NCBI RefSeq assembly: GCF_001427665.1
Contig: NZ_LMHC01000001.1
Span: forward strand, 169,364 to 233,363
DNA length: 64,000 nt
Source: Caulobacter sp. Root655
GTDB lineage: Bacteria > Pseudomonadota > Alphaproteobacteria > Caulobacterales > Caulobacteraceae
Direction of reading: 5' to 3'
A program made the position numbers and the translations under genes. The notes below the pieces were generated by a model. It was not told the DNA's origin. It worked only from the letters and a program-made list of their open reading frames with translations, and did no database searches. Shown piece by piece: positions 9,980 to 63,222 of the stretch. The number at the start of each line of letters is the position of its first letter. The first letter of the stretch is position 1.

Positions 9980-10091
9980 GGCTGAATGCCCGCATTTTGA
10001 CCACGAACGCGGTGAATAAGCGGCGTTCAGCAAGCTGTTGTTAAGCAAAGCGGCGCATCGATCGAACGATGCAGCCTGAATGCGCGTGGGC

Positions 10092-36182: not shown

Positions 36183-36222
36183 CGCCTTCGAGGGGGCTGA
36201 GGCGCTTTAGAGCCTCCTGCGA

Positions 36223-36951
36223 TCAGACCAGCGAGATGATGTCGTGGCCGAAGAACTTCGTCCGCCACATTGTCATGTCGGGATAGGCCGCCGCCAACCG
36301 GGCATGCAGGTCTTCCAGATAGCGGCGGTGATAGCTCAGGCCGACCATGATCAGTTTGTTGTGCCCCAGCAGCAGCGGCGCGAAACGAGGCGCGCCCTGC
36401 AGGAACAGACGGGCGACGCCCTCGATCACGCCGGGGAAGCCGCCGTTGAGGATGTCGTCGATGATGATCGCCCCACCGGGCGCCGTGACGTTTTCAGCGA
36501 AATGGTAGTCGTTGACCAAGTGCTGGTGCATGTGTCCGCCGTCCACGCTGAACAGCTGGAAGGGGCCAAACCGGCCCAGGATGTGCGCCGTGTCCAACGG
36601 GTTCAGCGCCAGGGAATCCTTGACGATTTCGGAGACGTTCTCCGGGTACGGCGCGTACTTCTGAACATTGGCCTTGAAGCCGGCCAGCATGTCGTTGATG
36701 CCGCCGCCGGAGTGGTCGATGTTGAGGCTCTGGTGGTCGAAGATGTCGATGGCCAGAGACTGCCGCCCGTTCACCGCGTTGACCAGGCCCAGGAAGAACT
36801 TGCCCTGGTGGACGCCGATCTCGCAGGCCCCGCCGATGACACCGGCTGCGGTCGACATCTCCGTGAAGTGGCCCATGATCTCGACGATCCGGCGACTGCA
36901 CCAACCCTCCACGTCGTCGAAGCCGCTGTCGAGATAACTGTCGATGCTCAT
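36223..36951 (-). CDS. SAM-dependent methyltransferase (class I)
   Basis: A 242-residue protein with the SAM-binding motif I GGACEIGVHQGKFFLGL, an acidic motif II (SLAIDIFDH) and FSVDGGHMHQHLVNDYHFAENVTAPGGAIIIDD, which resembles the metal-assisted O-methyltransferases acting on sugars in glycan clusters. Methylation of a polysaccharide sugar or chain end is inferred from context only. It converges with the epimerase gene. The ~275 bp upstream contain the repeat at 37159-37232 and nothing else I can name. Confidence 0.78.
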   Translation of the reverse strand: MSIDSYLDSGFDDVEGWCSRRIVEIMGHFTEMSTAAGVIGGACEIGVHQGKFFLGLVNAVNGRQSLAIDIFDHQSLNIDHSGGGINDMLAGFKANVQKYAPYPENVSEIVKDSLALNPLDTAHILGRFGPFQLFSVDGGHMHQHLVNDYHFAENVTAPGGAIIIDDILNGGFPGVIEGVARLFLQGAPRFAPLLLGHNKLIMVGLSYHRRYLEDLHARLAAAYPDMTMWRTKFFGHDIISLV

Positions 36952-37158
36952 ATGAACCGATGCCCCTAGCCCTACGTGTTGTTGGCTCCGCGCCTAATGG
37001 CGCGAGGCGGCCTGATCGGCGGGACAGCGTCATGCGGTCCGTTCGATCAGACGCTAGCGCGGCGCCGGCGCAGGGCTTACCGCGTAACGGTATGCGGTCA
37101 AAATCGCAAACCGATATTGGGGAGATCGTCGTTCTTTGGGCTGGCGGGCCCCGGTTAG

Positions 37159-37232
37159 GCGCTCCAAGTTTTTGTTTTCGAGCTTTTTCTTCACGCGAAC
37201 CAGTATCCACTTCACTCGAAGATGCTCTAGCG
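37159..37232. repeat. Interspersed intergenic repeat, second copy
   Basis: Holds agtttttgttttcgagc, cttcacgcgaaccagtat, ccacttcactcgaaga and a terminal tgctctag, all close to the element at 11893-11996, but it lacks that element's leading hairpin module. It overlaps the 3' end of the glycosyltransferase gene by a few bases. Confidence 0.65.
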
Positions 37233-38465
37233 GCGGACCGCCATGAACAGTCGCGCCAGCACGATCTTCACGCGGGAGGGCAGCAGGGCGCGCAAGCGAC
37301 GCCAGCCGGGTATTCTTCCGAGGCCCTCGCGCAGAGACTCAAGGTGCTGCCGAGCCACGCCCATCGCCTGTCGCTCGGCCGCACGGGCCAGATCCTCGGG
37401 TCCGCGGGATGCTTTCAGGGCGCGCGCCATGGCGGGGTTGCCGGCGACCAGGCCGCTCGCCAGTTGCCGGTACAGTTCCATATCCTCGAAATAGCTACGA
37501 ACAAGCCGCAGCGCCGTGGCGGGCGTCAGGGAGGGCGGGCGCTTCAGCGTCGCGCAGGCGGCGACGAACGCCGGCAGGGCCTTGAGGTCCTCCTCCCAGC
37601 GCAGACGCCCGGCCTCGACACCCTTGCGGGCCATGGTCCCCAGGCGTTCTGCGTCGGAAAGGTCAAGCGCGCCGTAGGAGCCCGGATCGAACAACATGCC
37701 ATTGATATTGTTGGCGATGTACTCGTTGTGCACCGGCCAGGAGGAACCGATGACGCACATCCCCCGCGCCATCGCTTCCAACATGAACATGCCGATGCCT
37801 TCGGAGAACCTCGGGCACACCGCGACGTTGCAGCTGTCGATCACGTCCGACAAACCCTTGGGGTCGTCGAACCAGCGCGAGCTGGTCACGCCGTAGCGCG
37901 ACGCCCACGACGGCAGGGTGACCTCCTCGTCGGGGTCATCGGGGGCGATATGGACGTGGATCGACTCGAAATTGCCGGGCAGCAATCGAAACACCGTTTC
38001 CAGATCGAGCTGGTCGCCCCGTCGGTGCCAGAAGAACACCCGCGGTCGCTCGAAGTCCTTGGCGAGCGCGAACGGTTTCGGATCGGGAAAATATTGCACG
38101 ACCTTGGCGCTGGCCATCAGCTCTCGGGTGGCCACGTGCAGGTTGTATGAGAAGTTCAGGATGCTGGCGTCCGACAGCGCCGCCCAGTGCTCGGCGGGCT
38201 GAGCGCCGCTGCCGTCGTACATCGGTATGACCAGGACGCTGGCTCCAACCGAGATGGGCAGGAAGGCCAGGGCTTCCAGCTGCCAGACGACGACCAGATC
38301 GAAGTCCGTGAAGTTCAGCGCGACCAGACGCTCGATTTCGCTGTCGGCTATCAGTGGGTCGAAGAACTCCAGCGTGACGTCGCTGAAACCTTTTAGGAAA
38401 TCCAGAAAGAACCGCGAAGAACCGGTCTTGCGGTGGAAGGCATGATCGAGAAAGAGAATCCTCAC
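37227..38465 (-). CDS. Glycosyltransferase, GT-B fold
   Basis: A 412-residue enzyme. The N-terminal half has RILFLDHAFHRKTGSSRFF, and the C-terminal half has the GT4-like donor site CPRFSEGIGMFMLEAMARGMCVIGSSWPVHNEYI with its E-x7-E pair. A basic helical tail (WRRLRALLPSRVKIVLARLF) may touch the membrane. I chose the GTG at 38465 because AGGTGAG lies just upstream and it overlaps the previous stop (GTGA), whereas the TTG at 38483 lies further inside that gene. Sugar donor unknown. Confidence 0.82.
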   Translation of the reverse strand: MRILFLDHAFHRKTGSSRFFLDFLKGFSDVTLEFFDPLIADSEIERLVALNFTDFDLVVVWQLEALAFLPISVGASVLVIPMYDGSGAQPAEHWAALSDASILNFSYNLHVATRELMASAKVVQYFPDPKPFALAKDFERPRVFFWHRRGDQLDLETVFRLLPGNFESIHVHIAPDDPDEEVTLPSWASRYGVTSSRWFDDPKGLSDVIDSCNVAVCPRFSEGIGMFMLEAMARGMCVIGSSWPVHNEYIANNINGMLFDPGSYGALDLSDAERLGTMARKGVEAGRLRWEEDLKALPAFVAACATLKRPPSLTPATALRLVRSYFEDMELYRQLASGLVAGNPAMARALKASRGPEDLARAAERQAMGVARQHLESLREGLGRIPGWRRLRALLPSRVKIVLARLFMAVRR

Positions 38466-39646
38466 GCGCTCACCTCGGTCCAAACTGAAGCCATCTGAGT
38501 CCGGGCGAGTTCGGCGTAGCGGGCGGCCGTTCTATCCGTCAGGGGTGCGACGTCGGACACGGTCATTTGGCTGAAGCGACGGATGGTGTGGACGAAATCC
38601 TCGTCGCCCGGACAATTGAACGCGGCTTCCAGTTGGGTGACCAAGGGGTGAAATCCGGTTCCGGACGCGATGGCGAACGGGCGATGCTTGGCAACGCCTT
38701 CCATGAATACCGCTGACCCGCGGAACCGGTAGGTTTCGTAGTCGTAGGGCATGATCAGGAAGCTGCAACGTGCGTATTGGGCCTCGAGTTCGTCGTCGGA
38801 CAGGCGCGCGGGCAGCAGGTCGATGTTCGGCGCGGCATAGAGCTGGGAAACATAGTGCGTCTGGTGTCGTTCCTCGGCGACCGGAACGTTCTGAACCACG
38901 AACTGGACATTGTCTTTCGGATAGGTCTTGGCGTACAGGCGCGCGATGTTCAACAACCGGAAGAAGCCCTTGTCCCCGCGCCCCGCGCCGGCGGAAAATA
39001 CCCGGTAGGACCCGGTGGCCGGCAACGGCGCGGGGGCTGACTCCAGGGGATAGAGCGTCCAGCCTACCTCTCGCTTGAACGTGTCCCGCAGGTTGTCGGA
39101 GTAGACGGGGCTTTCGGCGGACAGCGTGACACGATCGGTCTGACCCAGGCTTTCGAGGAGCTTGCCGATGTGGGCCAGGGGTTTGTTCGTCGAACGTGTG
39201 GCGTTCTCCATTACCCCGATGAACCGCAGATGTATCCGTGGGATGTTCTGCGCGCCTCTCGCGATCAGCGCCCGCAGCAGACCGCAGACGCCGTAGAAAT
39301 CGACACTCGGATAGAACAGATGGTCGTCGGCGCCGATCGCATCGTCGTCCAACCATTGGCTAAACTCGGCGAAGGACAGCGCTTCGAGCGGATCGAGGCA
39401 ATCGCCGGAGCCCTTGGGCGGCGGAGCCGGCGCCGTCTTGATCGGTACGAACTGCTGGTAATAGTAGTCGAACCGGCGCTCGAACTTGGCATACTCGCCC
39501 GTCAGCAGCGGAAAGTACCGGCAGACGACCGGGATCGGCTCGTAACCCGCTGAAGCGAAATAGTCCGAAAAATACAGGAGCGATTTCGGGTTGTGACCAA
39601 AGTCGAGCACGCACATGGGATCGATGAGAAAGACTCGCTTGATCAC
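38462..39646 (-). CDS. Glycosyltransferase-like protein, GT-B fold
   Basis: A 394-residue protein. It starts VIKRVFLIDPMCVLD and has GAGRGDKGFFRLLNIARLYAK (second Rossmann domain) and LIMPYDYETYRFRGSAVFMEGVAKHRPFAIASGTG, a donor-site region typical of GT-B enzymes in glycan clusters. I chose the GTG at 39646, which has GGAGGA at the right distance, over the TTG five codons earlier. It is translationally coupled to the next glycosyltransferase. Specific activity unknown. Confidence 0.75.
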   Translation of the reverse strand: MIKRVFLIDPMCVLDFGHNPKSLLYFSDYFASAGYEPIPVVCRYFPLLTGEYAKFERRFDYYYQQFVPIKTAPAPPPKGSGDCLDPLEALSFAEFSQWLDDDAIGADDHLFYPSVDFYGVCGLLRALIARGAQNIPRIHLRFIGVMENATRSTNKPLAHIGKLLESLGQTDRVTLSAESPVYSDNLRDTFKREVGWTLYPLESAPAPLPATGSYRVFSAGAGRGDKGFFRLLNIARLYAKTYPKDNVQFVVQNVPVAEERHQTHYVSQLYAAPNIDLLPARLSDDELEAQYARCSFLIMPYDYETYRFRGSAVFMEGVAKHRPFAIASGTGFHPLVTQLEAAFNCPGDEDFVHTIRRFSQMTVSDVAPLTDRTAARYAELARTQMASVWTEVSA

Positions 39647-39727
39647 TCCCAAATCCTCCAAAACAGACGGGAGCTAGACGCGTCGATGGTCGCCGCCCCA
39701 TCAAGGTGACGCATCGTCGAGCGATGC

Positions 39728-40627
39728 CTAGACGCGACGCAACCAAAGAGACGAACCGACCTGACGCGTCTTGAGATAGCGCGGAACCGCGGCTCCGAAG
39801 CGTTCATCACCCTCGCGGATGAGATGATACATCGGCAGTAGGATTTCCAGGTCACGGTTGCCCTGCAGCAGCAGCATCAAGGCGAGGCTCTCATTCCACA
39901 CCGCGGCGTATCGCGACATCTCATGCTCCCTGAAGAGCGTCGCATAAGGCCAGTAGATGTCGTGGAAATGGATCAGCGAACCCTTGGGCAGCGCCGGGAT
40001 GATCCGAAGCAGCAGATTCGGCAGCTCGGAGTCGGCCCGCAGGACGTGGGTGGTGTCGATTGAAACCACGACGCGACCGTCGAGCGGCCCCGCGTCCTCC
40101 AGCTTGAAATCCTGGGCCGACCAGTTCTTCAGATCTATGCCTTCCGCGGTGCAGAAGGTCACGAGGTTGGCGCTGGGATAGGGTTCCACCGCCACCATGC
40201 GGCCAGAGCCGTTACGCTTGAGCGCCTCGTTGAAATAGAAGGTCGAGACGCCCGCGCCGAACTCCAGCACCACGGACGGCTTTACGTGACGCACCACGCT
40301 ATAGGCGACGTGCCCCTCGACTTCGCCGAAACCCAGACCCAGCGTGTTGATGCGCGGATCGAAGTAGTCGGGCAGCTCGCCCTGCTCGGCCGCCGTCTCA
40401 CCGATGGCCTGCAATGTAACGCCAACCAGGGCATCATCGAGAAAGGAGTCCGGATCGACCGCGGGAAGACGGTCGATGTCCCGGTTCACGATGTTCTGGA
40501 AGTTCGCCACGGGCATGTAGAAATGCCCGGGCGGATAGGGCAGCTGATAGTGGCGCATCGTCCAGCGCTCGAGGCGAGCGCGAAGGCGCTCTTCGAGGGC
40601 TGCGGGCAGGCGGAGCTTGAAGGGCAT
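39728..40627 (-). CDS. SAM-dependent methyltransferase
   Basis: A 299-residue protein with the SAM motif VVLEFGAGVSTFYFNEALK, an acidic strand (MVAVEPYPSAN) and VVVSIDTTHVLR followed by GSLIHFHDIYWP. The His-Asp pair in the last motif resembles the metal site of Methyltransf_24-type sugar methyltransferases. An amphipathic N-terminus precedes the fold. It is 3 bp downstream of the epimerase gene, so both are probably in one operon. The methylated group is unknown. Confidence 0.75.
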   Translation of the reverse strand: MPFKLRLPAALEERLRARLERWTMRHYQLPYPPGHFYMPVANFQNIVNRDIDRLPAVDPDSFLDDALVGVTLQAIGETAAEQGELPDYFDPRINTLGLGFGEVEGHVAYSVVRHVKPSVVLEFGAGVSTFYFNEALKRNGSGRMVAVEPYPSANLVTFCTAEGIDLKNWSAQDFKLEDAGPLDGRVVVSIDTTHVLRADSELPNLLLRIIPALPKGSLIHFHDIYWPYATLFREHEMSRYAAVWNESLALMLLLQGNRDLEILLPMYHLIREGDERFGAAVPRYLKTRQVGSSLWLRRV

Positions 40628-40630
40628 CGA

Positions 40631-41599
40631 CTAGGCCGCGTTTCTACGGACTTGTTGTTCGACCCAGGCGTAGGTGCGTTCCATTCCCGCCCGAAGGGTC
40701 TGCGATGGCGCCCAACCCAGGCGTTCCTGGATCAACTGGTTATCGGAATTGCGGCCCCGCACGCCGGTCGGGCCCGGAATGTGGTTCATCTCGATGGACT
40801 TGCCGGCGATGTCGGCGACCATGTGAACCAGTTGGTTGATGGTGACCATTTCGTTCGACCCAATGTTGACCGGGCCTTCGAAGTCCGAGCGCAGCAGGCG
40901 GGTGGTGCCTTCGACGCACTCGTCGACGAACAGGAATGAGCGGGTCTGCAAGCCGTCGCCCCAGATGTCGATGGTGTCGTTCGAGGCGGCCAAGGCGATC
41001 TTGCGGCAAACGGCGGCCGGAGCCTTTTCCTTGCCGCCTTGCCAGGTGCCTTCCGGACCGAAGATGTTGTGGTATCGGGCCACGCGGTTACGCATGCCGT
41101 AGTTGCGATTGTAGGCCAGGAACAGGCGCTCGGAGAACAGCTTCTCCCAGCCATACTCGCTGTCCGGCGCGGCCGGATAGGCGCTGTGTTCGGCGCAATT
41201 GGGGTTGTCTGGGTCTTCCTGATTGTAGGCCGGGTACATGCAGGCCGACGACGAATAGAAGACTTGCTTGATCGTGCGCTTGTGGCAGGCATCAGCGACA
41301 TTCAGGTTGATGGTCGCCGAGTTGTGCATGATGTCCGCATCATGCTCGCCGGTGAAGATGTAGCCAGCGCCACCCATGTCGGCGGCCAGTTGGTAGACCT
41401 CGTCGAACCGACGATCGACCACATTACGCACGACGTGAGAGTCGCGCAGGTCCGCCACGACAAAATCGTCGGCTTCGGTCTCGGCGTACTCATGAAGCTT
41501 CAGGTCGACACCGCGCACCCAGAAGCCTTCTGACTTCAAACGCTTCACAAGGTGGCCACCGATGAACCCACCCGCTCCGAGAACCAACGCTGTTTTCAT
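40631..41599 (-). CDS. GDP-mannose 3,5-epimerase-like SDR enzyme
   Basis: A 322-residue extended short-chain dehydrogenase: Rossmann loop LVLGAGGFIGGHLVKRL, YQLAADMGGAGYIF, YSSSACMYPAYNQ, catalytic SEYGWEKLFSERL (YxxxK) and NRVARYHNIFGPEGTWQGG followed by KEKAPAAVCRK. These phrases match plant GDP-mannose 3,5-epimerase very closely. That enzyme turns GDP-D-mannose into GDP-L-galactose or GDP-L-gulose. The GDP-mannose supply gene manC is at 46109. I chose the ATG at 41599 (MKTALVLG) over one six codons upstream. Confidence 0.85.
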   Translation of the reverse strand: MKTALVLGAGGFIGGHLVKRLKSEGFWVRGVDLKLHEYAETEADDFVVADLRDSHVVRNVVDRRFDEVYQLAADMGGAGYIFTGEHDADIMHNSATINLNVADACHKRTIKQVFYSSSACMYPAYNQEDPDNPNCAEHSAYPAAPDSEYGWEKLFSERLFLAYNRNYGMRNRVARYHNIFGPEGTWQGGKEKAPAAVCRKIALAASNDTIDIWGDGLQTRSFLFVDECVEGTTRLLRSDFEGPVNIGSNEMVTINQLVHMVADIAGKSIEMNHIPGPTGVRGRNSDNQLIQERLGWAPSQTLRAGMERTYAWVEQQVRRNAA

Positions 41600-41773
41600 A
41601 TGACTCCATCCCTGCACGTTGCACCCCTCTAGCCGATGGGCGTAGACGTGCCAAGGACCAGAGAGGCTTGGACGCCCTTAAGTTGTTGACGCCACGGGGT
41701 AACGACCCGCCGCGGCCAGAGCGAAGGCGTCTGCTTCATCGTGTCGCCGAGCAATTGCGGAGTGGGCCGGGGC

Positions 41774-43735
41774 TTACGCCGCCGCCGCCGCCACGGCCTC
41801 GGCGGTGATGCCGAATTCCTTGTACAGGCGCTCGAACGGCGCTGACGCTCCGAAGCTCGTCATGCCGATGAACTTGCCGTCCTCGCCGATGAAGCGCTCC
41901 CAGCCCATGCGGACGGCGGCTTCGACGGCGACGCGGGTCGGGGCGGTTCCGATCACCGCCTCGCGGTACGCGGCCGGCTGCTGCGCGAACAGCTCCCAGC
42001 AGGGGGTCGAGACGACGCGGGTCGGCTTGCCCTGGGCCTGCAGGATGTCGCGGGCCGCCACGGCGATCGAGACTTCCGTGCCCGACGAGAAGATCGTCAC
42101 GACGGCGTCGCCGCCCTCGGCGGCCAGCAGCTCGTAGGCGCCCTTGGCGGACAGGTTCTGGCTGGCGTCGCCGCGCACGCCCGGGACCTTCTGGCGCGAC
42201 AGGCACATTACCGACGGGCTGGATTGGTGCTCCAGAGCGATCTTCCAGCACTCGGCGGTCTCGACCGCGTCGGCCGGGCGGAAGACCAGCAGGTTGGGCA
42301 TGGCGCGCAAGGACGCGATCTGCTCGACCGGCTGGTGGGTCGGACCGTCCTCGCCCAGGCCGATGGAGTCGTGGGTCATCACGTGGATCACACGGGCCTG
42401 CATCAGCGCGCCCAGGCGGATGGCCGGGCGGCTGTAGTCGGCGAAGGCCAGGAAGGTGCCCGAATAGGGGATGACGCCGCCGTGCAGGGCCATGCCGTTC
42501 ATCGCCGCGGCCATGCCGAATTCGCGCACGCCGTAGTGGACGTAGCGGCCGGCGTAGTCGGGGGCGTCGAAGGGCTGCATGCCCTTGACGAAGGTGTTGT
42601 TCGAGCCGGTCAGGTCGGCCGAGCCGCCGACCATCTCCGGGATGGCCGGGATCAGCTGGTCGAGGGCGGCGCCGGAGTGGACGCGGGTGGCGTTGGCGGG
42701 CTTGGCCTCGGCGGAGGCGGCGATGTGGGCCGTCAGCCTGTCGAAGGCGTCGGTCGGCAGCTGGCCGCTCATGGCGCGCTCGAAGTCGGCGGCGTGGGCG
42801 CTGGCCTTCAGGCCGGCTTCCCAGGCCTTGCGGACGCGGGCGCCGCGACGGCCGACGCTCTTCCAGGCCTTGGCGATGTCGTCCGGCACGGTGAACGGCG
42901 CGGCGTCCCAGCCCATGGCGACCCGCGCGGCGGCGATCTCGTCGTCGAACAGGGAGTAGCCGTGGCTGTGGTGGTCGCCTTCCTTGGGGCCAGCGCCCTT
43001 GGAGATCAGGGTCTTGCAGGCGATCAGGGTCGGGCGGTCCTGCCTGGTCGCCCAGCGCAGGGCGGCGGCGATCTTGCCGTGGTCGTGGCCGTCGACGGCC
43101 TTGACCGCCCAGCCGGCGGCCTTGAAGCGCAGCAGTTGGTCGCCGGTCTCGGCGATGGTCGCCACGCCGTCGATGGTGGTGTTGTTGTCGTCGAACAGCA
43201 CGGTCAGCTTCGACAGCTTCAGGCGGCCGGCCAGGCTGATCGCCTCATGGCTGACGCCCTCCATCAGGCAGCCGTCGCCGGCGACCACCCAGGTGCGATG
43301 GTCGACGGTATCCTTGCCGAAGCGCGAGGCCAGATGGGCCTCGGCCATGGCCATGCCGACCGACATCGCCAGGCCCTGGCCCAGCGGGCCGGTGGTGCAT
43401 TCGACGCCCGGCGTGTGGTGCGCTTCGGGGTGGCCGGGGGTCATCGAACCCCATTGGCGGAAGTTCTCGATCTCCTTCATCGTCACGGCCTTGAAGCCGG
43501 TCAGGTGAAGAAGGGAATAGAGTAGCATCGAGCCGTGGCCGGCCGACAGCACGAAGCGGTCGCGGTCGGCCCAGTTCGGCTGGCTGGCGTCGAACTTCAG
43601 AAACTTGCTCCACAGCACCGTCGCGACATCGGCCATGCCCATCGGCATGCCCTGATGGCCGGACTTGGCCTTGTGAACCGCGTCCATGGAAAGGACGCGG
43701 ATCGCGTCGGCCATTTTGATGGGCGAAACGGGCAT
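41774..43735 (-). CDS. tkt: Transketolase
   Basis: Transketolase moves two-carbon units between sugar phosphates in the pentose phosphate pathway, with thiamine diphosphate. The 653-residue length is normal. It has [27 protein letters not shown], the TPP motif [13 protein letters not shown] ending [23 protein letters not shown] and the final transketolase domain. I chose the ATG at 43735 ([13 protein letters not shown]); an in-frame ATG 19 codons upstream adds a non-family lead. It stands divergent from nadE. The ~155 bp downstream and ~220 bp upstream show no further gene. Confidence 0.95.
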
Positions 43736-43954
43736 GAGCTTGGCTCTTATCTTTTGATGTGTAGGCGTATCTGCGCCGGGCGCAGGTGGCATGGACCTCC
43801 TGTCGGGTCAAGCATGACGGGCGGTCTTCGGGCTCCAACGGCTCTGGGCGCTTTGCATCGCGGGCGTGAGCGGCTATATGAAGTCGGCGACTTATGCTCA
43901 TTTTCAGCATAACAGCGGCCCCCGTCTGGCGCCGCGCATCGGAAGGCTTCGACC

Positions 43955-46003
<2,049 letters not shown>

Positions 46004-46039
46004 ACGCGGGACGAGGTTCAGGACGCCATCGCCTCTGTT

Positions 46040-46061
46040 TTGATCAACTTGATGTGCTAAC
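46040..46061 (+). promoter_or_regulatory. Possible housekeeping promoter upstream of manC
   Basis: TTGATC and GCTAAC are 10 bp apart in the 105-bp gap before manC. This is close to the Caulobacter sigma-73 pattern as I recall it (TTGAC, 10-14 bp, GCTANA). The match is not perfect. Confidence 0.3.
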
Positions 46062-46108
46062 TGAAATCGCTTAGCGCGAGTTGTACGTTACCTCCTGAGG
46101 GGAATTTT

Positions 46109-47425
46109 TTGACCGCCATCTATCCTGTGATCCTCTGCGGTGGCTCGGGCACTCGTCTCTGGCCCGCCTCGCGTCCGGACCGTCCCAAGCAATTCCTCAA
46201 GCTGATCGGTGACCGCTCAAGCTTCCAGGACACGATCCTGCGGGTCATGGACCTGCCTGGCGCCGACGAGATCGTGGTGGTCACCGGCAAGGCCATGGCT
46301 GAGTTGGTCGAGCGCCAGGCGCTCGAACTCGGCGTCAAGTTGACGGTGATCATCGAGCCTGAAGCCCGCGATTCCGCGCCGGCCATCGCCGCCGCGGCGG
46401 CCTATGTTCACGCGCAGACGCCCGACGGCGTCATGCTGATGTTGGCCGCGGATCACCACATCGCCGAACCGGAGATGTTCAGGGAGGCGGCGCTGGTCGC
46501 GATCAAGGCGTCGCGCACGGGCCTGATCGTCACCTTTGGCGTCAAGCCAACCAATCCGGCGACCGGTTTCGGCTACATCAAGCCCGGCGAACCCTTGCCC
46601 GGCGGCGTGACCTCGGTCGCCGCCTTTGTCGAGAAGCCGGACCTGGAAACGGCGCGTCGCTATCTGCAGGAAGGCTACTACTGGAACAGCGGCAATTTCG
46701 CCTTCATGGCCACAGCCCTGCTTGAGGAACTGGCGACCTTCGAACCCGAGATTGGCGAGTGGGCCATCGAGTCCGTCGCCCGGGCCAATCGCGACGGGGT
46801 GCGCCTCTATCTCGACGCCGAGGCGTTCTCCAAGACGACCAAGAAGTCGCTCGACTACGCGATCATGGAGCGCACCCTTCGCGCCGCCGTCGCGCCGGCG
46901 GTCTTCACCTGGTCAGACCTGGGAGCGTGGGACGCGATCTGGGAAGCGTCCGTCCAGGACGCCGAGGGAAACGCGGCCAGCGGCGACGTTCATCTGATCA
47001 ACGCCAAGCGCGTGCTCGCGCGCTCCACCGGGCCCTTCGTGGGGGCGATCGGCGTCGAGGACCTGCTCATCGTGGCCGAGCAGGACGCCGTGCTTGTCTG
47101 CCGTCGAGACGACGCCCAGGCCGTCAAGACACTGGTCGATCTGCTCAAGGCCGGCGGGCGCGACATCGCCCACCGCCATGTCGTGGCCTTCAGCGGCGGG
47201 GTCGAGCGCCAACCCTTGACCAAGACTCTCAAGGCGGAAGTTCAGGTCTGGCGCATGGAAGCCGGCGCGTTTGTCACCCTTCCGGCCAGCTCGATCCAGG
47301 TTCTGGATGGCGAACTGGTCGCCGAGGCCGCCACGTTCCGGGGCGGCGCGCGCGAGGACCTGCATTCGCCGATCGTGGTCAAGGCTCCGATCGCGACCTC
47401 CGTGCTGGTCACGACGTGGCTTTGA
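46109..47425 (+). CDS. manC: Mannose-1-phosphate guanylyltransferase
   Basis: Makes GDP-mannose from mannose 1-phosphate and GTP. The 438-residue product has VILCGGSGTRLWPASRPDRPKQFL, the EPEARDSAPAIAAAA strand, LAADHHI, GFGYIKPGE, FVEKPD and YYWNSGNFAF. The C-terminal region after ~350 is short and weakly like the cupin isomerase part of bifunctional type II enzymes, so it is probably only a guanylyltransferase. The TTG at 46109 follows a gagggg ribosome site. Its 3' end overlaps that of the convergent AGE-family gene by 17 bp. Its product may feed the GDP-mannose epimerase at 40631. Confidence 0.93.
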   Translation: MTAIYPVILCGGSGTRLWPASRPDRPKQFLKLIGDRSSFQDTILRVMDLPGADEIVVVTGKAMAELVERQALELGVKLTVIIEPEARDSAPAIAAAAAYVHAQTPDGVMLMLAADHHIAEPEMFREAALVAIKASRTGLIVTFGVKPTNPATGFGYIKPGEPLPGGVTSVAAFVEKPDLETARRYLQEGYYWNSGNFAFMATALLEELATFEPEIGEWAIESVARANRDGVRLYLDAEAFSKTTKKSLDYAIMERTLRAAVAPAVFTWSDLGAWDAIWEASVQDAEGNAASGDVHLINAKRVLARSTGPFVGAIGVEDLLIVAEQDAVLVCRRDDAQAVKTLVDLLKAGGRDIAHRHVVAFSGGVERQPLTKTLKAEVQVWRMEAGAFVTLPASSIQVLDGELVAEAATFRGGAREDLHSPIVVKAPIATSVLVTTWL

Positions 47426-48563
47426 CCGCCCGGTCCAGCTCCAGGATCGCGCAGACGATGTGATAGAATGAGCTGGCGGGGGCGGCTTCCTCGATGAAGG
47501 TCCCGTCGGCTTGGAGCTTGTCCCGCCAAAGGCCCTGCACGGGTGTGTTGAAGTATTGGAACAGGCTTTCGGCGCCTCTCGCCGCCGTGGCCCACCAGGC
47601 CGGATCGCCGGTCACCAGGGCCGCCAACGCCCCGGCCTTGATCCGCTCGGTCTGGGCCCAGAGACGAGCCACGTCGTCATGCACGCTCATGTCGTCGAGC
47701 AAGGCGAAGATCGCCACGCCTCGGGCCGGGTCCACGCCCGGCCCATCGCCGATCCGGATCATGCGCAGCGCCGCCTCGATCGCGTCGTCGCGACCGGCCA
47801 TCACGCCCCAGCGCAGCAGCAGCCATGCCCACTCGAACTGGTGGCCGGGCTCGACGATCCGGCCCGCCACGCCCGGCGCCGGATTCCAGTCGCCGTCATA
47901 ATATTCCCGCAACCCGCCGCTGACCGGGTCGATGAACTTGGAAAGCGCCAGGTCGGCGATCTCGTCGGCCATTTCCCGCCAGCGGGTGTCGCCGCCGGCC
48001 TCGATCCAGGCCAGACTCGCCTCGAACAGGTGCATGTGGGGATTGGACAGCAGGGGCAGAGTACGCGGCGCGCTTTCCTCGAAGCCGGCGACCGGATGCT
48101 TTAGCTGGAGGTAGAGCTGGTCGCGCAACGCGGCGGCGCGTTCGGATAGATCGGTGCGTTCGGGCAGGACCTGAGCGGCCATGGCCAGCCCGAAGAGGCC
48201 GAAGGCCTGGTCGTAGAGGTCGACCTTGTCGTCGAGCGGCGCGCCGTCGGCCGCCACCAAGGTGCGGATGAAGCCATCGGGACGGACGTATTTGGCCAGA
48301 TAGAAATCCAGGCCGTGATTCAAGGCCTCCCTCCAGGGTCCGTTCCAGCCCAACAGGCCGGCCACGGCGTAGGCGTAAATCTGACGAGGCTGAACCCGCG
48401 CCCGACGTGGCGCGTCCACCGGGACGCCGTCGAGGGCGATTTTCTCGAAGAAGCCTCCGTTCGCGTGATCGGCGCCGACGAACCACCAGAGTGGGAAGGC
48501 GTGATCCAGGGCCCAAGACTTGAGGGCGTCGTTCAGGCGGACGACGTGTGCGAACTCGGTCAT
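47409..48563 (-). CDS. AGE-family sugar epimerase/isomerase
   Basis: A 384-residue (alpha/alpha)6-barrel protein of the N-acylglucosamine 2-epimerase family: WWFVGADHANGGFFEKI, DKVDLYDQAFGLFGLA, NPHMHLFEASLAW, GRIVEPGHQFEWAWLLLRW with the catalytic His residues. Members act on N-acetylglucosamine, cellobiose, or mannose and its 6-phosphate. Its place beside manC favours a phosphomannose-isomerase role giving mannose 6-phosphate, but that is inference. It overlaps manC tail-to-tail. Confidence 0.85.
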   Translation of the reverse strand: MTEFAHVVRLNDALKSWALDHAFPLWWFVGADHANGGFFEKIALDGVPVDAPRRARVQPRQIYAYAVAGLLGWNGPWREALNHGLDFYLAKYVRPDGFIRTLVAADGAPLDDKVDLYDQAFGLFGLAMAAQVLPERTDLSERAAALRDQLYLQLKHPVAGFEESAPRTLPLLSNPHMHLFEASLAWIEAGGDTRWREMADEIADLALSKFIDPVSGGLREYYDGDWNPAPGVAGRIVEPGHQFEWAWLLLRWGVMAGRDDAIEAALRMIRIGDGPGVDPARGVAIFALLDDMSVHDDVARLWAQTERIKAGALAALVTGDPAWWATAARGAESLFQYFNTPVQGLWRDKLQADGTFIEEAAPASSFYHIVCAILELDRAVKATS

Positions 48564-48661
48564 GGGCGCTCCTTCGTGCGCGGTGTTTTAGGCGGGGAGC
48601 CCGGGCTTCGCCAACCCCTCTACTTGTAGCTCGCTCCGGGCTCGCGTAATCCCATGGGCCC

Positions 48662-49210
48662 ATGTCACCCCAGCCGCCCATCGAAGCCGTTTTTCTAGAC
48701 CGAGACGGGGTCCTCAACATCGACCACGGCTATGTTCACGACCCCGCCGACCTCGAATGGATTCCGGGCGCGCGCGAGGCGGTGAGTCTGTTGATCCGAG
48801 CCGGCGTCAAGGTGCTGGTGGTGACCAACCAGTCGGGCGTGGCGCGGGGCTATTTCGACGAGACCGCGGTGCATCGGCTGCATCGGGTGATGCGGGACGA
48901 ACTGCGCGCGGTGGGGGGCGACATCACCGCCTTCTACCACAGCCCCTATCACAAGGACGCCACGGTCGAAGCCTTCCGACATCCGGACCATCCGACGCGC
49001 AAACCCAATCCAGGCATGATCCTGAGCGGCCTGACCGACCATGGACTGGACGCCAGTCGCTGCGTTCTGATCGGCGACAACGCCTCCGACATGGAGGCCG
49101 CGCGACGGGCGGGCGTGGAGGGTTTCCTGTTTCCAGGGGGCGATTTGCTGGCCTTCATGCGGCGAGCGCTCGGCTCACGTATCCCCACATTGATCGAGAA
49201 TGCGACGTGA
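48662..49210 (+). CDS. gmhB: D,D-heptose 1,7-bisphosphate phosphatase
   Basis: GmhB removes the C7 phosphate of heptose bisphosphate during nucleotide-heptose synthesis. The 182-residue HAD phosphatase has FLDRDGVLN (nucleophile Asp), [20 protein letters not shown] and [11 protein letters not shown]. The loop where E. coli GmhB binds zinc with three Cys has none here ([18 protein letters not shown]), though several His are in place. Its stop overlaps the rmlB start (GTGA). HldE at 8522 would use its product. Confidence 0.88.
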
Positions 49211-50256
49211 AAATCCTCATCACCGGCGGCGCTGGCTTCATCGGCTCCAGCCTGATCCGTTCGGCGCTGGAGGCTGGCCACGCCGTGGTCAATCTGGACG
49301 CCCTGACCTATGCGGGTGATCTCGCCAACCTGGCGGCGGTGGAAGACGCGCCCGGCCTTGCGTTCGAGCACGCCGACATCGCCGACGCGGCGAAGGTGGC
49401 CGCGATCTTCGCGCGTCACCGTCCCGACGCGGTTTTGCATCTGGCCGCTGAATCCCACGTCGATCGGTCGATCGACGGCCCGCTGGCCTTCGTCCGCACC
49501 AATGTGCTGGGGACCGCCGTCCTGCTGGAAGCGGCGCGCGCCTACTGGCGGGCGCTGGAGCCGGAGCGTGCGGCCGCCTTCCGTTTCGTCCATGTCTCGA
49601 CCGACGAGGTCTATGGCGCGCTCTCGCCGAACGACCCTCCGTTCAGCGAGCATTCGCCGATCGATCCGACCTCCCCCTATTCAGCCAGCAAGGCCTCGTC
49701 GGACCTGCTGGCCCGCGTTTGGCAGCGCACCTATGGCCTGCCCGTGATCGTCACCTCCTGTTCGAACAACTATGGGCCACGTCAGTTTCCCGAGAAGCTG
49801 ATTCCCACGGTCATCCTCAACGCCCTCGCCGGTCTGCCCATCCCCGTCTATGGCGACGGCGGCCAGATTCGAGACTGGCTATTCGTCGGGGATCACGCCG
49901 ACGCGCTTCTGCGCATCTTGGAGTCTGGTGTCCCTGGCGAAACCTATTTGATCGGCGGCGAGGCCGAGCGGACCAACCTGGATTTGGTGCGGACAATCTG
50001 TGACGTCCTCGATCGCCTGTCACCGGCCGACGCGCCGCGCGCCAACCTGATCACCCATGTGGTCGATCGGCCAGCCCACGACCGTCGTTACGCGATCGAC
50101 GCTGGCAAGCTGCGCGACGCTCTGGGCTGGCGGCCGCGGACGTCTTTCGCCACCGGCCTGGAACGGACGGTGCGCTGGTACCTCGACAACGAAACCTGGT
50201 GGAAGACGATCCGCGCCCGCGGCTTTTCCGGCCAACGGCTCGGCACGGAGTTGTAG
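49207..50256 (+). CDS. rmlB: dTDP-glucose 4,6-dehydratase
   Basis: RmlB converts dTDP-glucose to dTDP-4-keto-6-deoxyglucose, step two of dTDP-rhamnose synthesis. The 349-residue enzyme has [36 protein letters not shown], the catalytic [11 protein letters not shown] and [21 protein letters not shown] start it at the GTG at 49207, which overlaps the gmhB stop; a longer frame upstream is only a shadow of gmhB. It is the only intact rmlB in the window, 35 kb from rmlA, rmlC and rmlD. It is followed at once by an rmlD stub. Confidence 0.95.
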
Positions 50257-55469: not shown

Positions 55470-56630
55470 ATGAGCATGCCCTTCATCGACCTCGCCGCGC
55501 AGCAGCGCCGGATCCGCAGGCAGATCGACGCCGCCATCGCCGGCGTCCTCGACAGCGGCGCCTATGTCATGGGCCCGCAGGTGCGCGAGTTCGAGGCCAA
55601 GCTGGCGGCGTTCGGCCAGGCCAGGCTGGCCTTGTCGTGCGCCAACGGCACCGACGCCATCGCCCTGCCGCTGATGGCCTGGGGGATCGGACCCGGCGAC
55701 GCGGTGTTCTGCCCGTCCTTCACCTTCGCCGCCACGCCGGAAGTCGTGCCGTGGGTCGGGGCGACGCCGGTGTTCGTCGACGTGCTGGCCGACACCTTCA
55801 ATCTCGACCCGGCCAAGCTGGAAGCCGCCATTGCCGACGTGAAAGCCAGGGGAGAGCTGGCGCCCAAGGTGGTGATCGCCGTCGACCTGTTCGGCCAGCC
55901 GGCCGACTATCCGGCCATCAAGGCGATCTGCGACCGCGAAGGCCTGAAGCTGATCTCCGACAGCGCCCAGGGCTTTGGCTGCACGCTCAACGGCCATCAC
56001 CCGCTGCATTGGGCCGACGTGGCCACCACCAGCTTCTTCCCGGCCAAGCCGCTGGGCTGCTACGGCGACGGCGGGGCGGTGCTGACCAACGACCAGGAAC
56101 TCTGGGACCTGATGGACAGCTTCCGGGTGCACGGCAAGGCCGTGGCTCCCGACCTGGTCGGTCGCACCTTCGACCACGACACCAAGTACCTGAACACCCG
56201 CATCGGCATGAACTCGCGGCTGGACACCATCCAGGCGGCGATCCTGATCGAGAAGCTGGCGATCTTCCAGGAGGAGATCGACCTGCGCCAGGTCGTGGCG
56301 AACCGCTACGCCGAGGGCCTGGAGGGCGCGGTGCTGGCGACGCCCCGGGTGATCGACGGCGGCGTCTCGGTCTGGGCCCAGTACGTGATCGAGCACGCCA
56401 ACCGCGACGGCCTGGCCGCGCACCTCAAGACCCAGGGCATCCCGACGGCGGTCTATTATCCCGTGCCGATGCACATCCAGGCGCCCTATGCCGGTTTCCC
56501 GCGCGGGGCCGGCGGCCTGCCGGTCACCGAGGCCAAGGCCGAGACGGTGCTGGCCCTGCCGATGCACCCGTATCTGGACAAGGTTGATCAACAAAGGGTC
56601 ATCGAGGCGATCCTGGCCTTTAACGGTTAA
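55470..56630 (+). CDS. DegT/DnrJ/EryC1-family sugar aminotransferase
   Basis: A 386-residue PLP aminotransferase that adds an amino group to a nucleotide keto-sugar. Motifs are FIDLAAQQ, SGAYVMGPQVREFE, CANGTDAIALPL, VDLFGQPADYPAI, ISDSAQGFG and the PLP lysine in TSFFPAKPLGCYGDGGA, then NTRIGMNSRLDTIQAAIL. This wording is closest to WbpE-type enzymes that make UDP-diaminouronic acid precursors for O-antigens. No matching dehydrogenase or acetyltransferase is nearby, so the exact sugar is open. The 247 bp upstream hold only the repeat. Confidence 0.88.
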   Translation: MSMPFIDLAAQQRRIRRQIDAAIAGVLDSGAYVMGPQVREFEAKLAAFGQARLALSCANGTDAIALPLMAWGIGPGDAVFCPSFTFAATPEVVPWVGATPVFVDVLADTFNLDPAKLEAAIADVKARGELAPKVVIAVDLFGQPADYPAIKAICDREGLKLISDSAQGFGCTLNGHHPLHWADVATTSFFPAKPLGCYGDGGAVLTNDQELWDLMDSFRVHGKAVAPDLVGRTFDHDTKYLNTRIGMNSRLDTIQAAILIEKLAIFQEEIDLRQVVANRYAEGLEGAVLATPRVIDGGVSVWAQYVIEHANRDGLAAHLKTQGIPTAVYYPVPMHIQAPYAGFPRGAGGLPVTEAKAETVLALPMHPYLDKVDQQRVIEAILAFNG

Positions 56631-56693: not shown

Positions 56694-57458
56694 ATGCACG
56701 ATCCGGTGACGTCGTTCGTAGTCGCGGTGTTCAGCACGCCCGGCGCCGCCCTGATGATGGCGGGCGCCATCCTCGTCTTCGCTGTCGGGCTGATCCTTCA
56801 GTCGGGCCATTTCGAATACAGCCCTCTGCGCGACGATTTTCGCCGGCGCACCGATCTGTTGGAGGACCTGCGCGGTGATCGCCAGAAGGCCTTCTCCGAG
56901 GCCTTCGACGCGATCGACAAGCGTTTCAGCAGCGTCGCGAACCCTGTGTTGGAGCTGGGCTGGGCGCACTACCGAAGCCAACTGACGCCGACCGACGACG
57001 GCCGGCTGGCGGCGGCGATCCACGCCGCCGACGCCTTCGACCATGCCGACGCGCCGGCCCGCACCTTGGAATGGTGGGCCAATATCATGGTCGCCATCGG
57101 CCTGGTCATCACCTTCATGGGTATCGTCGCGGCGCTGACCGAAGCCACCTCGGCCATGGGCCCTGGCGGCGGCGGGGCGATGCAGGGCGCCCTGGTCAAC
57201 CTGCTGACCATCGCCGCCACCAAGTTCTGGACCTCGATCGCCGGGGTCCTGGCCTCGATCATCCTGCGCCTGGCCGCGCGCCGGCGCCGCCATGTGATCG
57301 AGGCGCTGGAAGCCCATTTCTTCGCCCTGCTTGACGCCTGTGTCCGCTTCGCGCCGCCCGAGAAGGTGATGTTGGAGCAACTGGCCACCCTGGCCCGGAT
57401 CGAGGCGGCCCTGAACCGCTCTTCGGCGACGGCTCTGCCGCGGACGGGCGTGGCCTGA
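56694..57458 (+). CDS. MotA/TolQ/ExbB-like membrane protein
   Basis: A 254-residue inner-membrane protein with three hydrophobic helices (residues ~10-37, ~125-150 and ~163-195). The second and third (NIMVAIGLVITFMGIVAALTEA and LLTIAATKFWTSIAGVLASIILRL) resemble the stator helices of the MotA/TolQ family, including the small-residue TxxxG pattern. The partner gene starts within its stop (TGATG). It probably forms a proton-driven stator with that partner. It lacks the long cytoplasmic tail of the anti-phage protein ZorA. The process it powers is unknown. Confidence 0.75.
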   Translation: MHDPVTSFVVAVFSTPGAALMMAGAILVFAVGLILQSGHFEYSPLRDDFRRRTDLLEDLRGDRQKAFSEAFDAIDKRFSSVANPVLELGWAHYRSQLTPTDDGRLAAAIHAADAFDHADAPARTLEWWANIMVAIGLVITFMGIVAALTEATSAMGPGGGGAMQGALVNLLTIAATKFWTSIAGVLASIILRLAARRRRHVIEALEAHFFALLDACVRFAPPEKVMLEQLATLARIEAALNRSSATALPRTGVA

Positions 57459-58342
57459 TGCGCCGCAAGCGCGGCCGCACGGTCGATGTCGAGGAGGGCG
57501 AGAGCTACTACGTGTCGATGACCGACATGATGGTCGGGGTGATCTTCATCTTCATCATCATGCTCAGCTACTTCGCCTTCGAGTTCCGCTCGGCCACCAC
57601 CAAGCTGACCAGCGCCAAGCAGCCGGAAACGGCGGCTCTGTTACAGACCGCCGCCAACCTGACGCCGCGCCAGGCCGACCTGGAGGTCGACTACCAGGCG
57701 CGGGTGCTGTGCGTGCCTGAAACGGTGCTTAGCGAGACTGGCGGCGGGGCCTCGGGCGAGCGCCGCTGCTTCTCCTTCGCGCCGCCGTCCAAGGTTCCGA
57801 CCCAGAGCGTGTCGACGGCGGACGCCCAGCGGCTGCTGATGGACCAGCTGGAGGCCGACCTGCGCGACGCCGGCGCGCCGATCAACGGCGATCCCTCGAG
57901 CGGAACCCTGGCCTTCAAGGCCGACCAGCTGTTCCTGGCCGGTTCGGCCACCCTGTCCCCGGACGGCCAACGGATCGCCGGACAGGTCGCCCAAACCCTG
58001 GCGCGCCGCCTGCCCTGCCTGGGCTATGGCGCGCCGGCCGGCGCCGGTTGCGAGGCCGGCGGATCCAAGCTGGCGATGGTCAATGTGGTCAGCCAGACCA
58101 ACCTCGACGCCTTCACGCCCGAAGGGCAACGGGCCGCCAGCCTGGCCCTGCAGCGCGCCGCCGCCTTCCACCAAGGCCTGACCGCCGCCCAGCCCCTGCT
58201 GGCGGCCCTGCGCAACGCTCCGGTCGGCCAGGCGGGCTCCCAGCCCCTGCTGCGGGTGGCCAGTGTCGGCCAGTCGCAGGAGGCGGCCTCGAAGGTCGGC
58301 GACGACCAGACCGTCAGCATCCAGTTCCAGATGAACCCCTAG
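57458..58342 (+). CDS. MotB/OmpA-like protein, partner of the MotA-like protein
   Basis: A 294-residue protein with a basic N-terminus, then one membrane helix preceded by the key acidic residue (VSMTDMMVGVIFIFIIMLSYFAFEF), as in MotB and ZorB, where that Asp carries protons. A periplasmic region with two Cys (~85 and ~105) leads to an OmpA-like peptidoglycan-binding domain (LFLAGSATLSPDGQRIAGQVA, then NLDAFTPEGQRAASLALQRAAAF) that departs from the usual NxxLSxxRA pattern. It is coupled to the MotA-like gene. No flagellar or ZorC/D/E gene is nearby. Confidence 0.75.
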   Translation: MRRKRGRTVDVEEGESYYVSMTDMMVGVIFIFIIMLSYFAFEFRSATTKLTSAKQPETAALLQTAANLTPRQADLEVDYQARVLCVPETVLSETGGGASGERRCFSFAPPSKVPTQSVSTADAQRLLMDQLEADLRDAGAPINGDPSSGTLAFKADQLFLAGSATLSPDGQRIAGQVAQTLARRLPCLGYGAPAGAGCEAGGSKLAMVNVVSQTNLDAFTPEGQRAASLALQRAAAFHQGLTAAQPLLAALRNAPVGQAGSQPLLRVASVGQSQEAASKVGDDQTVSIQFQMNP

Positions 58343-58445
58343 ATCGAACGCGACGTTTGGCGCGCGCGCGACGGCTGCCTATATGGCGGCCATCGCGTCT
58401 CGCGCCCGCCGGCGCTTCGGCGTTTCCGGCCAGCGAAAGAGCGTC

Positions 58446-59714
58446 ATGCCCTCCACTTCAGCCGTCGCCCGTCCTGGACCCCATCCCGGCATGGGTTTCG
58501 GCCAGTTCGTCGCCCTGATCGCGGCGATGATGGCCACCAACGCCCTGGCCATCGACTCGATGCTGCCGGCCATGCCGCAGATCGGCGACGCCCTGGGCGT
58601 GGCGACCGACAACGAGCGGCAGTGGATCCTGACCGCCTATCTGCTGGGCTTCGGCGCGGCCCAGATCGTCTATGGTTCGCTGGCCGACCGTTTCGGACGC
58701 AAGCCGGTGCTGCTGGTCGGCCTGGCGATCTATGTGGTGTTCGCCGCCGCCTGCGCCTTCGCCACCTCGTTCGAGATGCTGCTGACCGCCCGCGTCCTGT
58801 GCGGGGTCGGGGCGGCGGCGACGCGGGTGCTGTCGGTGTCGATCGTCCGCGACTGCTACAGCGGCCGGCAGATGGCCCGGGTGATGTCGCTGTCGTTCAT
58901 CGTCTTCCTGGGCGTGCCGATCATCGCGCCGTCGGTGGGCCAGGCCATCCTGCTGGTCGCGCCCTGGCCATGGGTGTTCGGCGTCCTGTCGATCTTCGGT
59001 CTGGCGGTAATCGTCTGGTCGGCGATCAAGTTGCCCGAAACCCTGCACCCCGAGGACCGCGTGCCCCTGACCCCCGGTCCGGTGCTGGCGGCCTTCAAGG
59101 AGTGCCTGACCAACCGCGTGGCCGTGGGCTACACCATCGCCGCCACCCTGGTGCTGGGCGGGCTGTTCGGCTTCCTCAACTCCGCCCAGCAGGTGTTTGT
59201 TGATGTTCTGGGGGCGGGCAAGACGTTCACCCTGATCTTCGCGGCGATCGCCGGGGGCATCGCCGTCTCGTCGCTGATCAACGCCCGCATCGTCGACAAG
59301 CTGGGCATGCGACTGGTCTCGCACACCGCCCTGGTCGGCTACATCGCCTTCGCGGTGGTCCACGCCCTGGTGGCCCTGAGCGGCCATGAGACCCTTTGGA
59401 CCTTCTCGCTGCTGCAGGCGGGGATGATGTTCTGCTTTGGCCTGGTGATGTCGAACTTCGGCTCGATCGCCATGGAGCCGTTGGGCCACCTGGCCGGCAC
59501 GGCGGCCTCGGTGCAGGGCTTCATCACCACCATTGGCGGGGCGCTGTTCGGCTTCTGGATCGGCCAGCTGTTCGACGGCACGACCGTGCCCCTGACCCTG
59601 GGCTTCGCCGGCTTCGGCATCGCCGGCCTGCTGGCCGTGCTGGCCACCGAGAAGGGCCGGATGTTCCACGCGGGGGCGGGCAGTGCGGCGGTCGAAGGGA
59701 CTGGGGTTCACTAA
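58446..59714 (+). CDS. Bcr/CflA-family multidrug efflux MFS transporter
   Basis: A 422-residue, 12-helix major facilitator that should export drugs or metabolites with protons. Motifs are TNALAIDSMLPAMPQIG in TM1, QWILTAYLLGFGAAQIVYGSLADRFGRKPVLL (the DHA1 loop 2-3 motif) and TRVLSVSIVRDCYSGRQMARVMS, as in Bcr/CflA proteins. I chose the ATG at 58446 (MPSTSAVARPG); an ATG 21 codons earlier adds only an Arg-rich lead. It follows the MotB-like gene by ~100 bp without clear co-function. Confidence 0.88.
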   Translation: MPSTSAVARPGPHPGMGFGQFVALIAAMMATNALAIDSMLPAMPQIGDALGVATDNERQWILTAYLLGFGAAQIVYGSLADRFGRKPVLLVGLAIYVVFAAACAFATSFEMLLTARVLCGVGAAATRVLSVSIVRDCYSGRQMARVMSLSFIVFLGVPIIAPSVGQAILLVAPWPWVFGVLSIFGLAVIVWSAIKLPETLHPEDRVPLTPGPVLAAFKECLTNRVAVGYTIAATLVLGGLFGFLNSAQQVFVDVLGAGKTFTLIFAAIAGGIAVSSLINARIVDKLGMRLVSHTALVGYIAFAVVHALVALSGHETLWTFSLLQAGMMFCFGLVMSNFGSIAMEPLGHLAGTAASVQGFITTIGGALFGFWIGQLFDGTTVPLTLGFAGFGIAGLLAVLATEKGRMFHAGAGSAAVEGTGVH

Positions 59715-62496: not shown

Positions 62497-63222
62497 TCAG
62501 GACGCCCGGGTCTCATCCAGCTGGCCCAGGATCATGATCTTCTGCCAGATCTTGCGGCCGAGATCGGAGGTCAGGGTCTCGATGTCGTTGACGGCGGCGA
62601 TCACCACCGAGTCGTTGCTCTCGCCGGCATAGAGCGCCGCCAGCTTGGCGGTCAGGGCCAGCATCTCGGCGCAGTAGTCGAGATAGCGGGCCAGTTCGAA
62701 GCGGTTCATCTCGCGCGCCGGCGACGAGGCCGTTCGCGGGCCCAGCACCAGGGTCGGGTCCTTGGTCAGCTGGTGCATGTCGATGACGTGGGCGAACGAC
62801 CGCAGCTCGTGCAGGGCCTTCTGGACGCGCGAGCGCTTCCAGCGTGACTCCAGCGACATGAAGAACCAGATGGCCGCGCCCGACAGCAGCACCAGATTGA
62901 CCGCCGGTTCCAATCCCTGGGCCAGGCTGAGGGTGCTGGCGCCGCGCAGGCTGGCCAGCCAGTCGAGCCGGGCGATCAGCGCCGTCTCCAGCCCGACCGC
63001 GACGACGACGATCGCCGCCACCAGGGCGCGCAGGAGGAGATAGGGTCGCGACAGCCGCCGGGCGCGCTGGGCCGTGACCCGGGCGGTGGCGGTCAGCTGG
63101 CCGCAGACCTCGGCCAGGCCCGAGGCCGGGAACCGTTCGGCGACCCGGGCGCGCAGGTGATCCAGGGTCTCGACCACCTTGTCGTCGTCGAGCTTCAACG
63201 CGCTGTTCGATCGCCTGGCCAT
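62497..63222 (-). CDS. Membrane protein of unknown function
   Basis: A 241-residue protein with two predicted membrane helices (about residues 63-85, LLLRALVAAIVVVAVGL, and 105-125, PAVNLVLLSGAAIWFFMSL). A basic juxtamembrane stretch RWKRSRVQKALHELRSFAHVIDMHQLTKDP follows, then a helical C-terminal domain with NRFELARYLDYCAEMLALTAKLAALYA. No catalytic motif was recognised. It is divergent from the thioesterase gene and shares the palindromic region at 63270-63299, so both may be under one regulator. Confidence 0.7.
   Translation of the reverse strand: MARRSNSALKLDDDKVVETLDHLRARVAERFPASGLAEVCGQLTATARVTAQRARRLSRPYLLLRALVAAIVVVAVGLETALIARLDWLASLRGASTLSLAQGLEPAVNLVLLSGAAIWFFMSLESRWKRSRVQKALHELRSFAHVIDMHQLTKDPTLVLGPRTASSPAREMNRFELARYLDYCAEMLALTAKLAALYAGESNDSVVIAAVNDIETLTSDLGRKIWQKIMILGQLDETRAS

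Follow-up and report, generated by a model that had tools for sequence, protein, structure and literature searches.

Zorya motors are described as ZorA5B2 assemblies (PMC11890865), and several parts of the type I motor are reported to be required for defence. Deletion of the cytoplasmic tail of ZorA (delta237-696) abolishes Zorya I defence, as do the ZorB substitution D24N and changes at ZorB residues H186, L199, R203, R254 or R259 (PMC11890865). ZorAB alone is reported not to be sufficient for defence (PMC8565338). The role of the tail and of the grip on the cell wall is a question in the Zorya field, and here we describe a natural pair that has neither, nor effectors. We found no description of a tail-less ZorAB in the parts of the literature on Zorya, motor families, exaptation and Caulobacter that were available to us.

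The pair lies in a 64,000-nucleotide stretch of the genome of Caulobacter sp. Root655 (the window; Table 1). An earlier note, made from the sequence alone, had described two coupled genes, encoding a three-helix protein and a protein with a stator Asp and a diverged OmpA-like domain, and had offered a stripped-down relative of Zorya as one reading. Both reading frames are confirmed, on the same strand and overlapping by 1 base, and the features assigned to each product hold in the models and alignments described below. We exclude chance, a frameshift or an assembly artefact, because the tail-less pair, with its short ZorA, recurs across many genomes at a ZorA identity of about 55-95%. Within the genus, the genome closest to that of the window carries the copy of Caulobacter sp. 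AP07, at 96%.

Table 1. Features of the tail-less zorAB locus and its flanks (window positions; row counts refer to aligned tail-less and tailed relatives)
Feature	Position	Strand	Details
DegT/DnrJ/EryC1/StrS aminotransferase	55470..56630	+	conserved left neighbour; context, not claimed as part
zorA-like gene, tail-less	56694..57458	+	254 aa, ATG to TGA; PADLOC ZorA1, AlphaFold2 model
ZorA T140, pore threonine, kept	57111..57113	+	T in 16/16 tail-less and 29/29 tailed rows
ZorA S181, pore serine, kept	57234..57236	+	S in 16/16 tail-less rows; S in 28 and T in 1 of 29 tailed rows
ZorA residues 222-254	57357..57455	+	tail-base helix (222-247) and last residues; relatives' long tail absent
zorB-like gene	57458..58342	+	294 aa; ATG overlaps zorA stop (TGATG); PADLOC ZorB1, OmpA-like fold
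ZorB D23, ion-carrying Asp, kept	57524..57526	+	D24 of published type I ZorB; alignment
ZorB residues 50-118, insert with C85 and C104	57605..57811	+	between membrane helix and OmpA-like domain
ZorB Q213-T214-N215	58094..58102	+	replaces H-T-D of the EGHTD peptidoglycan motif; H and D in 16/16 tailed, 0/16 tail-less rows
ZorB QTVSIQ	58307..58324	+	replaces RRIDLR; R254, R255, D257 and R259 substituted
MFS transporter	58383..59714	+	conserved right neighbour; context, not claimed as part

Profile searches place both proteins close to type I Zorya. ZorA matches the PADLOC ZorA1 model at 2.1e-39, limited to positions 15-256 of its 639, and ZorB matches ZorB1 at 2.1e-35; against NCBIfam ZorA_1 the first protein scores 85.8 bits, below the cut-off of 190. 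Neither has a Pfam match above cut-off, and PF01618 (MotA_ExbB) was not listed for the zorA product at E<=10. The same family matched three other genes of this genome, where TolQ, ExbB and MotA genes, identified by eye on the basis of their sequences and neighbours, are located separately, the host's own TolQR and ExbBD being adjoined by TolA- and TonB-like genes (also named by eye). The AlphaFold2 monomer model of ZorA (pLDDT 92.1) has three long helices, at residues 18-57, 120-154 and 160-216. Its top PDB match is the ZorAB structure 8qyd (7.5e-07); all six matches at E<=0.001 are ZorA, and the next is TolQ (1.3e-02). The ZorB monomer model, of moderate confidence (pLDDT 77.3, pTM 0.56), combines a membrane helix with an OmpA-like domain, and its structural matches are to ZorB, MotB and YfiB-type proteins. 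The proteins are thus relatives of ZorA1 and ZorB1, and membership of MotAB, TolQR or ExbBD is ruled out by profile, fold and tree. The phylogeny proposed in the earlier note did not place the pair with TolQR or ExbBD; it falls inside type I ZorAB, and profiles, fold and two trees all agree with a stripped-down Zorya from which the tail and ZorC are missing.

Described type I Zorya (8VVN from Shewanella ANA-3; 8QYD) is the closest known system, the top profile and fold match for the pair. Both have the pore residues, the overlapping zorA-zorB order and an OmpA-like ZorB domain with a C187/C198 cysteine pair. In contrast to type I Zorya, the pair lacks the cytoplasmic tail and ZorC, full-length ZorD was not found, and its ZorB is without the EGHTD and NRRIDLR peptidoglycan motifs and has a new two-cysteine insert. 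TolQR and ExbBD resemble it as small motors with a short cytoplasmic part that could energise an envelope partner, but are separate families by profile and tree. The MotAB flagellar stator has a motor Asp and an OmpA-like periplasmic domain in common with it, whereas the MotA_ExbB family does not match the pair and this genome's own MotA lies elsewhere.

The long tail of a type I ZorA is absent here, the protein stopping where the tail should start. Its length is 249-259 aa in ten full-length Caulobacter copies and 239-249 aa in three other Caulobacterales, and every Caulobacterales member read from the tail-less branch of the ZorA tree is tail-less. Tailed relatives extend roughly 185-550 residues beyond the core, with a few rows having a short or poorly placed core. 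The natural protein ends at nearly the same point after the last membrane helix as the reported delta237-696 construct; the laboratory form is defence-inactive (PMC11890865), whereas the natural one is conserved and accompanied by matching changes in ZorB. The ion-path residues of the type I core, the ZorB Asp and the ZorA Thr and Ser, are all retained in the alignment. A Glu pair that may correspond to a calcium site is not retained: each position is Glu in 18/29 tailed and 0/16 tail-less rows. Since tailed rows also vary here, the loss of this putative site weighs little. The title of 8QYH gives E86 and E89, which we matched to the pair by spacing; when a tailed relative was searched against PDB sequences to map the site on a solved ZorA, no match was returned, so the equivalence stays presumptive.

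Some ZorA homologues are irregular. Locus L079, grouped with tailed ZorA in our counts, has a 304-aa ZorA followed by zorB after about 1.5 kb, and resembles a broken tailed gene, with a likely frameshift. Loci L119 and L120 (genomes G782 and G818) encode ZorA-like proteins of 398 and 363 aa whose ends are of low complexity, adjoined by very long ZorB-like frames without EGHTD, possibly another variant. Genomes G710, G731 and G835 have ZorA-like matches within open frames of about 2,100-3,300 codons, these being frame and not gene lengths.

Tail-less ZorB retains the motor Asp and has lost most of the wall site. D23 is Asp in 16/16 tail-less rows and in 15/15 tailed rows that reach the column, and residues 12-40 are identical across 12/12 Caulobacter rows. 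C85 and C104 of the insert are both present in 15/16 tail-less and 0/16 tailed rows. Internal duplication as the origin of the insert had no overall support from hhalign and shuffles; in 2 of 10 rows, at most 20 of 500 shuffles attained the score. Among the residues of the peptidoglycan site (numbered after PMC11890865 and mapped by motif order), H186, D188, R254 and R259 are present in 16/16 tailed and 0/16 tail-less rows, so that three of the five named for peptidoglycan binding (H186, L199, R203, R254 and R259) are replaced. L199 and R203 are kept in all 32 aligned rows, and some wall binding may therefore remain. The 16 tailed rows are a chosen subset; further tailed loci that we read also have the motif, except for L107, which holds the L116 gene as a cut copy, and for the irregular loci L119 and L120.

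The effectors are missing as well, as the earlier note had proposed for ZorC and ZorD along with the ZorA tail. With PF15611 as proxy, none of the 22 distinct tail-less genomes gave a ZorC match (27 entries, five of them judged from contig coordinates to be second entries for the same genomes), and the window's own genome has none. The match is present in 19/20 genomes with tailed ZorA, at most a few kb from ZorA. The single tailed genome without a match, G559 (L076), has a 469-aa ZorA and a normal ZorB motif. A ZorD query from L067 found full-length ZorD in 3/3 tailed genomes, one of them that of L067 itself, in 0/13 tail-less genomes, and gave no match in the window's own genome. Partial ZorD matches occur in two tail-less genomes: G005 has a broken fragment, and G1055 has a match at 33%. 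The G005 fragment (L155, G005:C1:2104500-2120500) lies near recombinase- and ParB-like genes, 765 kb from the tail-less pair, and is likely what remains of a complete Zorya at a distance from that pair. PADLOC found nothing among the ten proteins neighbouring the pair in the window, in keeping with its description as lying away from defence genes.

The trees address how this reduced form arose. The ZorA tree has 63 rows, 61 ZorA with TolQ and ExbB as outgroup and no MotA; 21 of 82 loci had been removed because they were duplicated, cut or odd. All 19 tail-less rows from Caulobacterales group in a single branch (100/100), which has the tailed ZorA of genome G163 as its sister (99/95) and lies within tailed Caulobacterales (95/89), and ZorA is split from TolQ and ExbB at 100/100. 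A tree of ZorA and ZorB together (40 rows) gives the same nesting. The nearest tailed loci, L066, L067 and L068, look like complete zorABCD operons. Given the nesting among tailed Caulobacterales ZorA, we read the pair as a type I Zorya descendant formed through loss, that is, a Zorya motor minus its defence parts.

Another tail-less ZorAB pair, divergent from the first, occurs in a different alphaproteobacterium, next to a dTDP-rhamnose (rml) cluster (L112, positions 8580-10153 of G881:C1). It has lost the features that the Caulobacter pair has lost and is placed elsewhere in the tree. A single origin of all tail-less pairs is not rejected with ZorA alone (AU p 0.181) and is rejected with ZorA and ZorB (p 0.0047), for a group named after the first tree had been seen and with a very long L112 branch; for these two reasons we regard independent origins as probable and go no further. 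Pairs of the L112 type were absent from the 36 other genomes of the G881 genus sample and from 24 further genomes, and since it was found in 1/37 genomes of that sample, the L112 pair may be recent or decaying.

Within Caulobacter the pair is not universal. ZorA has matches in 12 of 61 genomes (that of the window, 36 others from its genus and 24 from its order), all in the genus (12/37); in one of these, G021, zorA is split across two contigs, and close relatives such as G002 have no pair. Searching with the alignment gave 12 matches in 299 genomes of the order (seven tail-less Caulobacter and five with long frames), 12 in 385 of the class (that of the window and 11 grouped as tailed, L079 included) and 53 in 398 of the phylum, where, among the matches read, open frames below 300 aa occur only in the window's genome and G881. 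Named carriers retrieved with the ZorA alignment comprise 18 loci, of which 15 are from Caulobacter, two from Asticcacaulis and one from an uncultured Caulobacterales bacterium. Plasmid and phage sequences gave no match to the pair, and the single viral-contig match is a tailed ZorAB; we therefore exclude carriage by a mobile element or phage. In Caulobacter the gene order tal, CBS, CGS, MscS, DegT, zorA, zorB, MFS, ligase is kept as far as the contigs and stretches read reach. Median dN/dS (Nei-Gojobori, 11 sequences per gene) is 0.262 for zorA and 0.373 for zorB, with 55 pairs each and none above 0.60. The neighbours have medians of 0.186 (DegT), 0.408 (MFS, 45 usable pairs), 0.163 (CGS) and 0.228 (MscS). 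The zorA and zorB values indicate that the pair is maintained by purifying selection.

We interpret the locus as a type I Zorya motor stripped of its defence parts, retained chromosomally in Caulobacteraceae and exapted to a task in the cell envelope, and give this reading a probability of roughly 0.6. It draws on the published findings that the tail and peptidoglycan binding are both needed for defence and that ZorAB alone is reported as insufficient (PMC8565338). Because many Caulobacter relatives retain the disarmed form, a new envelope job is probable, and zorAB is likely a domesticated, non-defence machine. A ZorA pentamer around a ZorB dimer, a predicted 5:2 complex, would stay in the membrane as the motor. 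With an ion path that is intact by sequence, ions would still pass the pore and make ZorA rotate against ZorB. The periplasmic domain of ZorB, with its two-cysteine insert, could then grip an envelope partner other than peptidoglycan, and the pair would serve as a small energiser, much as TolQR or ExbBD do. We would give even odds to a broader proposal, that domestication happened at least once and probably twice, with ZorAB shedding tail, effectors and wall site in step to become a general motor, driven by ions and serving an envelope task outside defence, of a new 5:2 class. Such a motor, kept by selection, is a ready test that separates the defence-specific parts from the plain motor parts, and points to defence systems as a possible source of new machines for ordinary cell biology.

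Alternatively, the pair could still act against phages, as a minimal ZorAB that needs neither tail nor effectors to kill or depolarise infected cells, or that relies on effectors encoded elsewhere. Arguing for this are its ancestry in a defence system in both trees, the intact ion path and the patchy presence in the genus (12/37). Counter to this, tail-deleted ZorA, peptidoglycan-site mutants (PMC11890865) and ZorAB alone (PMC8565338) are all reported to fail in defence, no tail-less genome tested has ZorC, none of the ten neighbours matches a PADLOC model, the Caulobacter position is fixed amid housekeeping genes, and plasmids and phages have no match. We consider continued defence unlikely. 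A decaying, functionless remnant of a Zorya operon is less likely again: several parts have been lost, presence is patchy and G005 also carries its distant broken ZorD fragment, but both frames are open in every complete copy, the dN/dS values are low, ZorB 12-40 and the pore residues are invariant, and the pair persists across genera at 43-57% identity.

Two further possibilities strike us as very improbable. The tail-less form could be the older, with Zorya gaining tail and effectors later, and the root does rest on two outgroup rows, TolQ and ExbB, with long branches; yet in both trees the tail-less branch is nested, at several levels, among tailed rows, and the base of the tail (the PPE..EQL helix) is still present. 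The pair could also interfere with an incoming complete Zorya by forming mixed, inactive motors, as the kept membrane core would allow, but the core shares just 24-30% identity with its closest tailed rows. An ordinary TolQR- or ExbBD-like pair, suggested by size, general fold and the TolQ match that comes next in the PDB, is the least credible of all, given a ZorA without PF01618, separate TolQ, ExbB and MotA genes in the same genome, PDB matches that are all ZorA at E<=0.001 and a tree that refutes it at 100/100.

If the motor has been exapted, its neighbours might include a partner, and we found none. DegT is present in 13/13 tested Caulobacter genomes without the pair. In three of these (G002, G033 and G027) MFS directly follows DegT, and in G030 it lies further on; the other nine have no MFS homologue in the stretch, with ligase after DegT, in some cases with a gap or other genes. 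The stretch before MFS (CTATAT...) is similar by eye in the window and the three pair-less genomes, so MFS probably has its own promoter, and we reject it as an operon partner. Outside Caulobacter the settings differ: the Asticcacaulis pair is flanked by a lipoprotein-like hydrolase gene and purL (named by eye), and that of the uncultured Caulobacterales (L065) by other genes. Across four genomic settings no partner gene is common to the junctions. All-against-all BLASTP of the reading frames around the window, L020, L063, L064, L065 and L112, leaving out the comparisons window/L020 and L063/L064, found zorAB alone shared, besides an rmlB common to the window and L112. Because DegT and rml genes are common, we do not count such sharing as evidence. 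A role in glycan or RTX export, raised in the earlier note, thus finds no real support, with DegT kept where the pair is absent and no partner shared among settings.

Two other regions of the window deserve mention. Positions 34816-50256 hold genes for an ABC transporter, an NAD epimerase, a transketolase, a nucleotidyl transferase/ManC-like protein and a GlcNAc 2-epimerase, together with an rmlB-like gene (by eye), which suggests a polysaccharide cluster. At 62497-63222 on the - strand, adjoining ligase and DUF4349 genes, a 241-aa protein with no Pfam match is conserved in several Caulobacter loci.
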